64,000 nucleotides of DNA, from assembly GCA_037042185.1 (NCBI GenBank), contig JAXQJY010000030.1, positions 1,984,001 to 2,048,000 on the forward strand, read 5' to 3'. The stretch is from Sordariomycetes sp. S80-01Y. Lineage: Eukaryota > Ascomycota > Sordariomycetes. Positions 10,779-18,962 of the stretch are shown piece after piece (position 1 is the stretch's first letter; each line of letters opens with the position of its first letter). Both the position numbers and the translations under genes were made by a program. The notes beneath the pieces were generated by a model. The model had not been told where the DNA came from. It searched no databases and saw nothing but the letters and a program-made list of their open reading frames with translations.

Positions 10779-13700
10779 ATGCCTACCAATCTTCCTTCGA
10801 GCTTCGCCTCGGCTGCAGCTGGCCAGAACGCGACCAGGGGGGGTAGGGGAGGAGCATCGAGTGACTGGTGAGTGGCCATACGTACCCTTCGAGCGTGTTT
10901 TTCTCAGCCGAATCCTGTCTGCAACCCTCAGTTGGTTGTTCTATTACGTCGTTTAGGCGAGGGACTTAGGGCTAGGACTTCGTGACCTCGAAGTCTAAGC
11001 CGATCACACTTTCCACGTGCCCTCCAGATGCAGAGCAGTAAAAGTGTCGAAGTTAAATGCTAATTTGTATATCTTGCAGGTCCCGACGCGACGGACGCTC
11101 TGCTAATGGCACCCTCACTCTTCGCCGATCCTCTACCACGCCTCTCAGCCAAACTTCGCAGAATCCACCCACGACCGACAGCGCTCAACAGTCCCCCAGC
11201 AACGACCCCCAGCCCGCACATCCTTCAACCTACGAGCTGAGCCCTTCGAGATACAACAAGGAAGAGCTGTTGGCCATGGCTCAGCCGCCGCGGTCCGGCG
11301 CGGACGTCTCCCGTCTTTTCAACCAAGGGTGGAACCCTGGGCACGTGAACGGAAGTGGCTCTAGAGCATGGGGGAAGAGCAACGAGAACCATATCCCGCA
11401 GGAACCCGGCGCGTGCTGGAATGAAGTTGGAGACAGCACCCCTTTGGCTACCCAGCCGATGTCGCTTGAAGAGCGAGATGTCAGTCTTCCAAGCCTGTGT
11501 GCATGATAGCAGCGCTGACCCCCACAGGCTTTCACGAGCGATATCAACTCTCCAGTCAAGCCACCCACGATGAACAAGGACGGAGCGGGCACTGCAGGCA
11601 TCAATGGCCGAAAGGCGTCGTTGTCGCAAGGTGCTGCCAACGCATTTGGCGTTAGCTCACCATCGTCTGCTACCAGACCTGGTACGCGTCGACGTGAGAC
11701 AAGTGACGCGAACCCTTTCAGTCTTGCCTCACCCACCTCTGCGACTCGTTCTGGAAGGGAGGATGTGCCCTGGCTGTCGCGTCGCAACACCGAAAGGGAG
11801 CCCGAGCAGCACGAGGATGACACTTCAAGCAAAGCTCCGGGTCCCATCGGCAATCTCATGCGGAGTAACACCGCTGGTTCATCCAACATGGCTTCCCTTT
11901 GGGGCAATTCGCAGCCAACTTCTCCATTTGGTGGCGGATTTGGCAACTTTGCGATGGGAAGCAATGCAGCTGACAAGAAGGCAGCACCTGGGCCAAGTCG
12001 CCTTGCCCACTTGATCCCAAAAGAGAACGAGAACCCCTCCACTCGGTCTGAAGCCCAAGGTGCTCTAAACCAAACCTCTTGGCGATCGAGACCCCGGACT
12101 GATACCGATCCCTTCGGCGAAGACGTTCCGTCTGGCAGCGCCGCTCTTGGAGGTTCTACCGAAACTGACTACGTCCCGCAACAGGGGAACGCTGGGACTC
12201 TAGGGACCCCCGTGAAGGGTTCCGCTGGCGACTTCGGCATGTCTGGTCTCCATCTCGGAGACAATGGACAGGGCAGCCCTTCCGAGACTAACCCGTATCG
12301 CAGCCCAGCTGCTGACCTTCCTCACGATGACGAGGGTGGCGCTCCCCGGCAGTATTCCGGGTTCCCCCAGGACGTGCCATCTGGATACAACACCTTGCAA
12401 CGCGCGTTTACCGAAGGTCACGACCGTAGTCAAACTTCCAGTGCCAACAGGGGGTTCCCAATGGGCCACATGTCTGCCTGGCAAGCCCCTGGAGGCCCTA
12501 CAACCGGAACTCCGGACCGCGAGCGCTCCGGCATGGGAGCAGGACCATTCTCGCCAGCCCTCTTCAACAGCGCAGATAATATCCAGTCTCCTTCTTTGGG
12601 TAATCTGAGCAGCTTCTTCGGCCCCGGGCCCGCGGCCGGGGGCATGGGCACCAACAGCATCGGTCGTGGCAGCAAGCTTAGCTCAATGTTTCCAGCCGCC
12701 ATGCAGGCCCAGATGCAGCAGTCGCACGCAGAGCACGATTCCATTTCGGACGCAGCGAACGACCCTCGATTCCCGAGCCAGCTTGGTGCCATTGGGCGGA
12801 ACAACTTTCCTACCCGTGAGACGCAAAGCCCCATGCGCGGTGGTCGCCATCCCTTTTTCGAAGACATGTACTCCAACAATCAAGCCCCGTATGGCTCTGG
12901 CCAAGGATCTTTCGGGGCCCCGGGTACCTTCACCCCGGTCAGCGGCTCCATGTCCTTCGATGCCACCAAGACCGCCTCCACCGCCGATGTTTCTTCCCAG
13001 CAACGCATCATGGTTATGCCTGATCGCATGAGATGGGTTTATCTAGACCCTCAGCAGCAAGTCCAGGGGCCTTTCACTGGGCTCGAGATGAATGACTGGT
13101 ACAAAGCTACGTTCTTCACGCCAGATCTCCGCGTCAAGAAGCTGGAAGACGCCGAGTTTGAACCCCTGGGACAGCTCATCAGGCGTATAGGAAACTCCCG
13201 TGAGCCGTTCCTTGTCCCTCAAGTTGGCGTTGCCCATGGGTCTCCTCTTCCGTCCGCCGATACTGCCTCGACAAACAACGCCGGCCAGGTCGTGCCTCCT
13301 CTGAGCAGTGTTTTCCCTGCCTTCGGACGCACTTTGACAGCCGATGAGCAGAACAATCTCGAGCGTCGCAAGCAGGAAGAGCAATACAACCAAGCGCAGC
13401 AGCGTGATATGATGTACAGGCACCAGGCTGTTGGGCGCTTTCCCGGGCAACCTGGCTTGAACCACCACTCCAGTGCACAGAGCCTTCAGAGTCAGCCCAG
13501 TTACGGCAACATGACTTCTCCGATCGGTGGTATGCCCGGGCATATGCCACAGGGCCAATTTGGCGGAATGCCGCCGTCAGGGGGTAACGCGGGGTCTTTT
13601 TTTGATGCCGTCGGTGAGGGTCGCGCCAATCTGACCCAAGGAGCCGACATGCCCCTAAGCGGAGACGAGTTGGCGCACTTGTCTCAGCACGAACGCTCCG

Positions 13701-15321
13701 TTCTCGCCGCCCTTAACGAGCAGCATGGACAGCAGCAAGCTGACGCTGCCGGCGATGAGATGAATTTCCGTACTGGCCTTCCCGAGGTTGACGATCTTGG
13801 CCCCGATGCTGAAGGGTTCAAAGAGCGACTTCAAGAATTCAACGACTTGCGCGCCCAGCATGACGCTCAGCAAGCTGCACATGCCGAGGAGCAATCTGAG
13901 GATATGCAGACTTCAGAGGAGCCCGCCCCACGACAGTCGGGCCCGGCTCGCATCAGCAAAAGCAAGAAATCTAAGAAGATGATTCCTTTGGTCCAGGAGG
14001 ATGAAAACCTTTCTCTGACGCAGCAGGTCCAGCAGACCCAAGCTGCCGCCGCCGCCGCTCAGACGGCCGTGGAGCCTGACATGCCCATGCCTTTCCCTCC
14101 CCCGTCTTCTTCTACTCCCCTTCCAGCGCCGACTGCTCAACGTGTCCGCTCGAATCTTCCCGATCAATACAATCGCTCTCATTCCGGCACTCCCGAGGAC
14201 GACGCTGGGCCGGCTGAGCCCCCGCCAACGGCACCTTGGGCAAAGGAGGCAAGCAACGAGGCACCCAGGGGTCCTTCCCTGAAAGAAATCCAGGAGGCCG
14301 AGGCTCGCAAGGCAGCCCAGGCTGAAGAAGCTGCATCTGCAGTGAGGAAGGCTGCACTTGAGCACGAGGCTGCCCTGTTGCGAGAGAAGGAAAAGCAAGT
14401 TGCCGCTGCCGCAGCTGGCTTGCCTGCTTCAAGCACTTGGGGCCATTCTGCTTCCCCCGTTGCTGGCGGTAGCCCTTGGGTTAAGCCAACCGCCGCGAAG
14501 GCCCCAGCTCCTGGCGCCGGCCAAGCTACGGCTTCGAGCAAGAAGACGCTTGCTGAGATCCAAGCTGAGGAGGAGCGTCGCAAGCAGAAGGCTAGGGACG
14601 TATCTGTGCCGTCTGCCGCTCCAGCTCCAAGCTCTAAGAGTTATGCGAACCTCGCTGGGAAGACGGGCCAGGCCATCCCTTCTGGACCATCGGCCGCCGC
14701 GGCGGCCCCTCCTGGCGCTGGCTGGGCGACCGTCGGCGCTGGCGGCAAGGTGAAGGCTCCGCTGGGCACTAGCTCGGTACCTCGCTCTGCCAGCGCCACT
14801 CAGCCCAAGCCATCGCCTGCTCCGCTGAAGCCCACGTCCCGACCTGGACCGGCTTCGCAAGTCACAACCTCTAACACCGCACTGGACGATTTCCGCAAGT
14901 GGGTTACCCGCGAACTCGCCCGCGGCGGACTCCACATCCCTGACTGTAAGTTTTGGCGTCATCTTCTGTCGTGTTCGGGTGCTAACCATTGTTAGATGAA
15001 AGCTTTGGCCAATCCCTCGAAGCCCTGCCCCTGGACACTTCACTCATTGCCGATGCCATCTACGCCAACTCCACCATCATGGACGGCCGCCACTTTGCCG
15101 AGGAGTACGTCCGTCGCAAGAAGCTGGCCGACAAGGGCATTTCGGAGAAGGGACCAGCAGCCAATGAAGTCAAGGTGTCGTCCGGCGGGGGCGGTTGGAG
15201 CGAAGTCGCCAAGAAGACAGCAGGCACCCCTACCAATGCTGGTGCCGCAGGAGCGGGAACCAAAGAGGAGGCTATGCCTGGCTTCAAGGTTGTGTCGGGC
15301 AAGAAGAAGGGCAAGAAATAG
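10779..15321 (+). CDS. GYF-domain protein (Smy2/Syh1/GIGYF-like), four exons
   Basis: Exons 10779-10867, 11080-11479, 11528-14945 and 14996-15321 join in frame (introns of 212, 48 and 50 bp, all GT-AG) to give 1410 residues. The first exon encodes MPTNLPSSFASAAAG, and the second intron restores the frame across ERD/AFTSD. Most of the protein is Ser/Pro/Gly/Gln-rich and probably disordered. The GYF domain lies at about 665-720 with W-x-Y-x-D, QGPF and MNDWYKATFF; such domains bind Pro-rich peptides. A charged Ala/Glu/Lys coiled-coil region (about 1070-1120) and a conserved Lys-rich C-terminal tail follow. Yeast Smy2/Syh1 and animal GIGYF act in translational repression, mRNA quality control and ER-Golgi traffic. 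The long first intron may carry regulatory signals. Confidence 0.9.
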
Positions 15322-16398: not shown

Positions 16399-16931
16399 TC
16401 AAGCCTGGCAAATCTTGTCCTCTCCGCACTTGGCGCTGCAGCACCAGGCATCCGACTCGCAATCGAAGCCGTCGATACGACAGTCGCTATACTCGCCGCA
16501 GACGCCGAACTCAGCGCCGTCAGGGTTGATGCAGTTGTCGCTGCAACACTCCGAATCCGACCTGCAGGAGAATCCAGAAGTACGGCAGTCGCTGAATTCG
16601 CGACAGATGCCTAGCTTGGCACCCTCGGGCTTGTCACAGATGGTGCTACAACACTCGGCGCCCGACTTGCAGTCGAAGCCGTCGACGCGACAGTCGCTGT
16701 ACTCGCCGCAGATGCCGAACTCAGATCCACCAGGGTTGAGGCAGTTCTCGCTGCAGCACTCTGCGCTCGACCTGCAGGAGAATCCGGCGGTGCGACAGTC
16801 GCGGGCCTACATCTTGGTCAGTGGACCCGTTGCCGAGTGGCTTCGGCTCGGCGAGGGTGACTTGCCTCGAGGTCGGGAATGGCAGCGACGAGGCCAGCGA
16901 AGCCCACGATGGTTGCGAAGGTGAACTTCAT
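16399..16931 (-). CDS. secreted protein of four tandem cystine-knot-like (knottin) modules
   Basis: Two exons on the minus strand, 16931-16866 and 16806-16399, join at a GC-AG intron (GCAAGT donor, 59 bp, phase 0) to give 157 residues. Exon 1 encodes the signal peptide MKFTFATIVGFAGLVAA plus a short pro-stretch IPDLE. Exon 2 encodes four modules of 35, 35, 35 and 28 residues. Each has six cysteines spaced C-x6-C-x5-C-C-x3-C-x10-C (x5 in the last gap of module 4), which fits the inhibitor-cystine-knot framework. All 24 cysteines of the protein lie in this pattern. Modules 1 and 3 share GFSCRS, and modules 2 and 4 share DGFDC, indicating duplication of a two-module unit. Module ends carry Gly/Arg-Glu-Tyr/Phe-Ser linkers. 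Role is unknown; effector, antimicrobial or protease-inhibitor functions are all possible. It was found by splicing, since exon 2 has no ATG. Confidence 0.85.
16807..16865 (-). other. GC-AG intron in the knottin gene
   Basis: This 59 bp intron has a GCAAGT donor and a TAG acceptor. The only nearby GT (two bases inside) would put the cysteine exon out of frame, so the GC donor is required for the four-module reading frame. Confidence 0.75.
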
Positions 16932-17900
16932 GTTGTCGATGGGTTGAAAGCGTGCGAACTTGGTCTGATGTAGGGGCTTTTGGTGCGTGTGCTCGTGTTG
17001 TGCAGTCTGAGATGCCACGCCAAGACTACGGATGGGCAGATGCGCTTGTATTTATAGTGAAGTTAGAACTGCAGACAGTTGCTGGTAGCTTTAATCTTCC
17101 ATCGTCAAGATTTGATCTGGCGGCTTGCGGGACCTTCTGTTTACAGTCGCAATCCAATAAGGGGGTAGGTGGGATGAGGCAGAGCGCCATCGCGGAGAGG
17201 CGCAGCCCGGTATGCTCCGCCTTGTTCCCCGGGGATTCCCCATCATATAAGCTTAGCTGGAACCAGAAGTGGCCGAAGATATATGACCAGGGATTCGTTC
17301 CAACAGCAGCGCGGGAGGGATTTGTTCTTGAGCCCTGGGGACTGGGGCATTGGTCAATACTCCAAGGATCCGCCTGATCGTTGCCCGGCCATGCGTGATA
17401 GACGCCGCCAGTCACAAGGCAGACTAGTCTCGGACTCAGCTATGGCTACTGAAGAGGGAAGCTAGGAAGGGACGCGCATGGTGAATCACTAAGGCTAAGC
17501 GTCACGATAGATAGAACCAGAACCAATATGAGCGGCCATCGCAGGACTGTGGTGGTGCGTTCCTCAACATTGGGATCATGACCACAATCGCTTTACCGGC
17601 AGTAACGAAATTTGTCGTCAAGACTGAATGCAACTATTTCTGTGACCTAGTAAGCCGGGCGCAAATGATAGTAGACTCAGATATGGTCGTGCGTCTTGTT
17701 GAATGAACAACATATACCCCGGGGTGATACTTACAGTGCGAGCAGACGACATCACTATTCTGCACTGTCTAGACGGATCCACTTTGAACAACACTGACAC
17801 TCGCCCCATCACTTCGCGGACACCACAACCCATTGTAGTCATCGCCGAATAGAAGCCCACGCACCGAAGTGAAGGAGTCTTTACCTGTCAAGCCGGCACT
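16932..17900. promoter_or_regulatory. divergent region between knottin gene and orphan gene
   Basis: About 970 bp separate the two divergent starts. Besides the TATA box there is a CCAAT word near 17150 (plus orientation). ORFs such as one at 17026-17415 (minus) do not look like protein and overlap the promoter. No other gene is seen. Confidence 0.5.
17049..17056 (-). promoter_or_regulatory. TATA box of the knottin gene
   Basis: On the minus strand the sequence TATAAATA lies about 118 bp upstream of the knottin start codon at 16931. This spacing suits a core promoter with a short 5' UTR and a regulated, strongly expressed gene. Confidence 0.6.
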
Positions 17901-18962
17901 ATGTCGATCTCTGCAGCGGTCGCATCGCTCAAAGAGCATCTTTCGAAAATTACTGAGGACCCTCATCTGGAGTTCGACGAGACCCTCTTCGACGACTGGA
18001 GACTGAAGGTGGACGACGACAACCGCCTTTTCCTGACGGATGAGCTGCTGCCGCTGCTGATCGCCGCGGTGAGGAGCACAGAGGTCGAGCCGAAGCCGGC
18101 CACGAGGCTCATCGCCGATCTCATCGCCCCTTGGACCTTCAACGACGTCTTGACCTTCGGGATACAGTCGGATGAGGTGGTCCAGGCCTTGAGGTCGGGC
18201 TGGGAGGGTCCGCAGTGGCTGGCCTGGGCCATCATGGAGAAGGCCAGCTGGGACGTGTCTGCGACGAGTATGTTGGCGGCAAACCACGCTGACATGTTCA
18301 AGAAGGCGTTCGACACATTGCTCAGGACGCCGCACTACGGACCGGCAGACAAGGGCACGCATGTCATCGCCAAGATCCTGGCCATGGATTGCCCTTCAAA
18401 ACCCGCACGTATGAACGGCTACCACGAAGGACAGACTGACGACACTCCTGGCACGGGAACCCTCTGGGAACTCCTCTGCGACGACGATTCCGACCTCTCT
18501 CGAGACGTCGAGGCGCTCATACGACTTGACCAGTCACAACTGTCTCCCTCAGAGCAGAGAAGCCGGGACCAGGTCTCGACATCACAGGCCCGGCTGCTCG
18601 ACCTCTACGGACGGATCTGTCCGCTCGAACCGCTCCGCGTGCTGCGCTCGAGGCTCTTCGCATCCGCCTACCGGGAAGTCGACCTGGCGGACCCCGTGGA
18701 CCGCAGGATCTGGAAGCAGTTCTGGGAAGGGCTGGTCGTGGCCGTTGAGCAGTCGGAGAGGCGATCGCCCGAGGGAGACGAGGAGTTCAAGATGGCTCTC
18801 GACCGGGCGTGTCGAAGGGACGCGGAGGTCGAGAGCGAGGATCCGCTGAGGAGGGATCTGGAAAGGGTGCCGAATACGGCTGACGTGCCGCCGGAGCGCA
18901 TCGAAGTGCTGACCGAATGGGTGAGATATCTGCTGAGTCCGGGGGATGCGATGGAAGATTAG
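17901..18962 (+). CDS. hypothetical protein, 353 aa
   Basis: A single-exon frame starting MSISAAVASLKEHLSK encodes 353 residues. It is acidic, rich in Leu, Asp, Arg and Trp, without signal peptide or membrane segment, and looks mostly alpha-helical, perhaps a helical-repeat fold. Codon use and amino-acid composition are those of a real fungal gene and the stop is clean. I do not recognise a domain. It is divergent from the knottin gene and convergent with SEC7. It may be a conserved fungal protein of unknown function. Confidence 0.75.
   Translation: MSISAAVASLKEHLSKITEDPHLEFDETLFDDWRLKVDDDNRLFLTDELLPLLIAAVRSTEVEPKPATRLIADLIAPWTFNDVLTFGIQSDEVVQALRSGWEGPQWLAWAIMEKASWDVSATSMLAANHADMFKKAFDTLLRTPHYGPADKGTHVIAKILAMDCPSKPARMNGYHEGQTDDTPGTGTLWELLCDDDSDLSRDVEALIRLDQSQLSPSEQRSRDQVSTSQARLLDLYGRICPLEPLRVLRSRLFASAYREVDLADPVDRRIWKQFWEGLVVAVEQSERRSPEGDEEFKMALDRACRRDAEVESEDPLRRDLERVPNTADVPPERIEVLTEWVRYLLSPGDAMED

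Follow-up and report, generated by a model that had tools for sequence, protein, structure and literature searches.

A knottin-like gene of two exons lies on the minus strand of the window (the whole 64-kb stretch of DNA analysed here) and encodes a product of 157 aa (Table 1). The donor of its single intron is GC (AG/GCAAGT), and a CTGAC branch-like motif is positioned close to the acceptor TAG. Apart from the GC, the donor fits the usual donor consensus. We infer the splicing of the 59-nt intron from these signals. When the intron is retained, the frame from the ATG meets a stop within the intron (ORF 16818-17051) and all four modules are lost; therefore, splicing is required for the four-module protein. 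Retention of the GC-AG intron would replace it with a short signal-peptide-like product.

Residues 1-17 form a strongly hydrophobic stretch with a hydropathy maximum of 2.41 per 10 residues, and cleavage after VAA would obey the -3/-1 rule. The four-module protein is thus probably secreted, judging by its N-terminus. The mature chain, taken from residue 19, has a mass of 14.8 kDa, a pI of 4.18 and a charge of about -15 at pH 7. No dibasic pair (KR, RR, KK or RK) occurs across the whole 157 aa.

All 24 cysteines fall in register within the four modules. The spacing is C-x6-C-x5-CC-x3-C-x10-C in modules 1-3, and the last loop of module 4 is shortened to x5 (6-5-0-3-5). A loose expression of inhibitor cystine knot (ICK)-type spacing has four matches in the six frames of the window, all of them within the knottin-like gene, and none in each of 20 trinucleotide-block shuffles. 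The linkers are always five residues long between the flanking cysteines (CGEYSDC, CREFSDC and CGEYSDC, that is, GEYSD, REFSD and GEYSD), as is GAFSD in the relative P0001 described below. Loop 1 has six residues, and Arg directly follows the first cysteine (C1) in all six module sequences available (four in the window, two in P0001).

The first-pass annotation had described a spliced minus-strand gene at 16399..16931 for a secreted-type protein with four tandem modules, 24 cysteines in register and ICK-compatible spacing. The coordinates are right, with two exons and a 59-nt intron whose splice is predicted from sequence; the hydropathy of the signal-peptide-like start agrees with secretion; and the modules are confirmed, including the shorter last loop of module 4, with the spacing fitting in four of four.

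Table 1 Features of the knottin-like gene and flanking reading frames (positions in the window)
Feature	Coordinates	Strand	Description
Knottin-like gene	16931-16399	-	Two exons, 157 aa
TATA-box-like TATAAATA	17049-17056	-	125 nt upstream of ATG; consensus match only
Exon 1	16931-16866	-	ATG at 16931; encodes MKFTFATIVGFAGLVAAIPDLE, that is, signal-peptide-like segment MKFTFATIVGFAGLVAA + IPDLE
Intron, GC-AG type	16865-16807	-	59 nt; GAG/GCAAGT...CTGAC...TAG/GCC; predicted from sequence
Exon 2	16806-16399	-	135 residues + stop; holds all four cysteine modules
Module M1 (A type)	16696..16800	-	35 aa, C-x6-C-x5-CC-x3-C-x10-C + linker residues
Module M2 (B type)	16591..16695	-	35 aa, spacing as M1
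Module M3 (A type)	16486..16590	-	35 aa, spacing as M1
Module M4 (B type)	16402..16485	-	28 aa, last loop cut to x5, C-terminus
GYF-domain ORF	11519-14995	+	Convergent with the knottin-like gene
Neighbour ORF, MSISAAVASL...	17901-18962	+	Divergent from the knottin-like gene; no Pfam family

Between M1M2 and M3M4, dN is 0.14 and dS is 0.82 over 55 codons, which is a small number of sites. A search among 5.8 billion proteins yields one relative, P0001 (94 aa, an ORF of a public assembly with lgn as source), which is 54% identical to the query across 46% of its length, at an E-value of 5e-10. The candidates searched were about 74-236 aa long here and 38-122 aa long for a profile query. This profile query already included P0001 and returns P0001 again and nothing more; its better E-value there is therefore no independent support. 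P0001 has two modules, compared with four here, but the similarity starts from the same ARDC, the five-residue linker is kept, and the last module is short in both proteins. P0001 stops shortly past its last module, its first module carries a six-residue insertion, and its own frame is without a hydrophobic start, as expected for a second exon. Exon 2 is therefore read as protein-coding, since dN is below dS between its halves and P0001 resembles it from the shared ARDC onwards, with the linker retained. Exon 2 and P0001 have no match in NCBIfam, none of 140 pattern matches in viral contigs is confirmed as a relative, and no relative is matched in plasmids. Rarity cannot be claimed, since a neighbouring gene used as a control in the same protein database also gives only one relative, at 91% identity; fungal coverage of that database is thin, or else the neighbour gene is narrowly distributed too.

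In the 20 residues that lead to the fifth cysteine (C5), M1 and M3 share 16 positions and M2 and M4 share 14, compared with 12 or 13 for the other four pairs. Since modules 1/3 and 2/4 pair best up to C5, a two-module unit has perhaps been doubled (A-B-A-B). The pairing weakens over whole modules (M1-M3, 27/35; M2-M4, 16/28; M1-M2, 20/35), where M2-M4 is no better than M1-M2. The second module of P0001 matches M4 at 15/27, M2 at 15/34, and M1 and M3 at 13/34 each. For its first module the figure is 21/35 against both M1 and M3, but this module is close to M4 too (18/28), which makes its assignment to type A weak. M1M2 and M3M4 are read as an old duplication of a pair whose protein sequence selection has apparently maintained, and a two-module ancestor doubled inside one exon is the simplest reading of these comparisons. 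Alternatively, P0001 may be derived by loss, from four modules to two.

In the genome (30.9 Mb, 16 contigs), exon 2 matches only itself at E<=10, and plain protein searches reveal a single copy of the knottin-like gene. With P0001 as query, C15:1520521-1520772 is matched at E 0.059 with one internal stop; neither the spacing expression nor reading of the sequence reveals a module, and we regard it as a chance match. Pfam family PF08116 has three matches in the genome, all below the cut-off, one of which is the knottin-like gene. The two others (L010 and L012) were rejected, as the spacing expression has no match on either strand of them.

The window has 34 ORFs of at least 250 aa. Nine near the gene were scanned, and six of the nine have Pfam matches (GPAT, RNase P p29, GYF, a fungal transcription-factor domain and, in two ORFs, Sec7/BIG); several of these neighbours are housekeeping genes. 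The GC content of the gene is 0.558 versus 0.563 for the window, and there is no long tandem array in 10-25 kb of the window. Given the conserved-family neighbours, the window-like GC content and the lack of a long tandem array, the gene looks like it sits in a core-genome place. The six conserved families among nine neighbours do not suggest an effector island, although the protein may still be an effector. The genome contains 24 HET-domain matches, and HET families mark filamentous ascomycetes; the host proposed earlier, an ascomycete, is supported as a filamentous one, and only to that level. A search of the assembly for 5.8S rRNA has no match, and comparison of Sec7 with the PDB points to no species.

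Beside the gene, an ORF that overlaps the GYF-domain ORF and extends to 15321 may be the last exon of the latter. The sole database relative of the divergent neighbour ORF is P0002 (jgi, lgn), 91% identical, so a fungus closely related to this one has probably been sequenced. Elsewhere in the genome, UstYa (DUF3328) has three matches, on contigs C2 and C15, and none in the window. Those above the cut-off at G000:C2:634987-635505 and G000:C15:1942467-1943214 may mark dikaritin-type RiPP clusters.

The ICK consensus spacing is C-x(3-7)-C-x(4-6)-C-x(0-5)-C-x(1-4)-C-x(4-13)-C, which accommodates each of the modules. When the four modules and the two of P0001 are scanned singly against Pfam at E<=1, the spider-toxin model Toxin_29 (PhTx) is reached, weakly, by six of six (best E 0.0037) and Conotoxin_I2 by four of six (best E 0.0072). 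Toxin_12, Dickkopf_N (E 0.0048), DUF5637, Toxin_22 and Toxin_23 are reached by one or two of the six. The complete exon 2 reaches 22.5 bits against Toxin_29 (PF08116; curated cut-off, 25) and 15.6 bits against Conotoxin_I2 (PF17557; curated cut-off, 27), both below the cut-offs. Conotoxin_I2, UPF0506, Dickkopf_N, JmjN and Toxin_19 all match exon 2 more weakly than Toxin_29 does, making six families at E<=10 under filters that remove most weak matches.

A profile of the modules matches 5 of 177,635 distinct PDB sequences at E<=10: MK1-3.6.10 (E 0.0031), eurocin (0.022), 1dkc (0.46), pB1 (5xbd; 0.86) and the nuclease I-PpoI (1.2). The values for 1dkc and 5xbd are near noise, just ahead of the unrelated nuclease, itself near noise; their alignments share CC-x3-C-x10-C with the modules. 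Eurocin is a defensin and not an ICK protein. Reversed-module decoys have no PDB match at E<=10, and one of six has a Pfam match, to the unrelated CBM_1 (E 0.17), with none to Toxin_29. As the decoys give almost no matches, the resemblance goes beyond mere cysteine content. The first-pass annotation had called for an AlphaFold-type prediction. AlphaFold2 gives a pLDDT of 40 for exon 2 (no alignment) and 58 for M1 (alignment of five sequences), both of low confidence, so that no confident fold emerges and the prediction decides neither way. Foldseek and VIA searches with these models return no match, a result that carries no weight because both input models are poor.

The spacing and profile matches favour an inhibitor cystine knot for the modules. 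Another three-disulfide fold, for example defensin-like or Dickkopf/colipase-like, is rather improbable. It would suit the low-confidence models and the absent fold match, the eurocin match, and the one module that matches Dickkopf_N about as well as modules match the toxin models. However, the adjacent CC with x3 and the loop order follow the ICK consensus in every module, and Toxin_29 is reached by every module sequence and by no reversed decoy.

We propose that this spliced gene of a filamentous ascomycete would yield a small secreted protein of four ICK-type modules. A two-module A-B protein would have been doubled inside one exon to give A-B-A-B, with P0001 apparently a living example of the A-B form. 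The chain would be exported uncut, hardened by disulfides and acidic, and its four modules, set on linkers of fixed length, would display repeated loops. Through these loops the chain may engage extracellular proteins of one or two kinds with avidity and act as an inhibitor or a blocking ligand. A multivalent extracellular binder or inhibitor is the most likely function by analogy with the tandem-knot spider toxins, in which avidity is raised. An intact four-module chain is favoured because the linkers are short and of conserved length and dibasic sites are lacking. Taken as a whole, the account of an intact, secreted, acidic A-B-A-B chain of ICK-type modules that binds extracellular protein with avidity has, in our judgement, an even chance of being correct.

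More specifically, the loops of the knots could occupy proteases of the host or of competitors, since knottins include protease inhibitors (PMC4503680). The six-residue loop 1 and the Arg after C1 in every module sequence would be in keeping with such a role. However, that Arg stands right after C1 and not at the squash-type reactive site, which is one residue further on, and no inhibitor family is among the Pfam matches listed. We consider a protease inhibitor unlikely, though worth weighing.

Somewhat less probable still is an antimicrobial or antifungal protein directed against competitors, like plant knottin-type antifungal peptides. The cysteine pattern shared with 1dkc (named ANTIFUNGAL PEPTIDE) and pB1 would agree with this role, and knottin-like and similar effector candidates of Venturia inaequalis are suggested partly to target competing microbes (PMC9632046). 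However, no antifungal family is among the six Pfam families listed at E<=10, where filters remove most weak matches. Plant knottin-type antifungal peptides are cationic, but the mature chain has a pI of 4.2 and a charge of about -15. The strong negative charge therefore disfavours a cationic membrane-active peptide, and an antimicrobial in the usual cationic sense, as suggested in the first-pass annotation, is weakened.

The same annotation had considered a precursor cleaved at the inter-module linkers, which would release four free knottin peptides of A and B types. The signal-like sequence is indeed followed by four similar units in succession, and each could fold alone by its spacing. However, the linkers have a conserved length of five residues, likewise in P0001, the three UstYa matches lie outside the window, and the absence of dibasic sites argues against a Kex2-cut precursor (other proteases could serve); we now regard this fate as quite improbable. 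Finally, a mis-predicted or unspliced locus, with the modules not produced as one protein, could be argued from the GC donor, an intron predicted from sequence and the single relative, but it is very improbable given dN below dS between M1M2 and M3M4, the P0001 similarity starting at the predicted acceptor, the donor fit and the branch-like motif.

The multivalent binder or inhibitor can be compared with several known systems. The plant peptides 1dkc and pB1, which are positively charged, share CC-x3-C-x10-C with the modules, as does pB1 the C-x6-C, but they are single-domain, their loop between the second and third cysteines has 7-8 residues instead of five, and the E-values are only 0.46 and 0.86. 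Dikaritin RiPP precursors are secreted fungal repeat proteins, as the present protein probably is, but the repeats of the present protein are cysteine modules without kexin-type dibasic sites between them, and no UstYa match lies in the window.

Among fungi, the accessible parts of the literature describe the knottins Avr9 and a Histoplasma expansion, the Fungi1 family (PMC4503680), and knottin-like MLP124266/AvrP4 (PMC6889267). They also describe knottin-like families in Venturia (PMC9632046), candidates in Beauveria (PMC12099005) and Emergomyces (PMC12705615), and further knottin-like proteins in Parastagonospora (PMC8146201) and in a cluster around BAS3 (PMC8715435). Compared by description only, these proteins are small and secreted, with a six-cysteine knot known or predicted, as is proposed for each module here; but where their accessible descriptions give a number it is one knot per protein, tandem knots are not mentioned there, and the present protein has four modules. 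The accessible part of PMC13127573 contains nothing on knottins. Among the matches listed from open papers, the titles and opening parts of abstracts hold no tandem knottin in a fungus, which means not found rather than absent.

In the open literature, as far as its accessible parts go, tandem knottin-like arrangements are known from animal venom toxins, usually as pairs, and a fungal description was not found; the main text of the paper on secreted cysteine-rich repeat proteins, or SCREPs (PMC6262176), has no word starting with 'fung'. Spider venoms contain tandem-knot toxins whose avidity is raised; in the Hc1a family, the last exon carries all modules, which stem from duplication within it, and domain expansion beyond two is mentioned for tandem-knot toxins and SCREPs (PMC13172734, PMC6262176). 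DkTx is thought to have another origin than the Hc1a family (PMC13172734). Like the Hi1a/Hc1a family, DkTx and SCREPs, as described there, the fungal gene is read as encoding tandem ICK-type modules joined by linkers in one probably secreted chain, and, as in SCREPs, the cysteine modules stand in tandem within one chain (four in one reading frame, with disulfides presumed). The spider toxins, however, are animal venom components with mostly two modules, whereas the fungal protein has four, probably A-B-A-B, and is strongly acidic. It has no sequence membership among the spider toxins, the Pfam toxin models being below the cut-off.

If the knots are real, fungi would have independently built the avidity-giving tandem-knot architecture of spider toxins and extended it to four, and the gene would show, as a case of its own, that knots can multiply within an exon. 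It would also provide a naturally tetravalent, acidic and probably hardy scaffold, and fungal effector surveys that seek single small knots could overlook such multi-knot chains. Tentatively, and with chances that we put a little short of even, the protein may found a family of fungal knottins that are tandem, multivalent and left uncleaved and that go back to the doubling of an A-B pair in one exon. By convergence, such knottins would parallel the tandem-knot toxins of spiders, but with higher valence and a surface that is strongly acidic.
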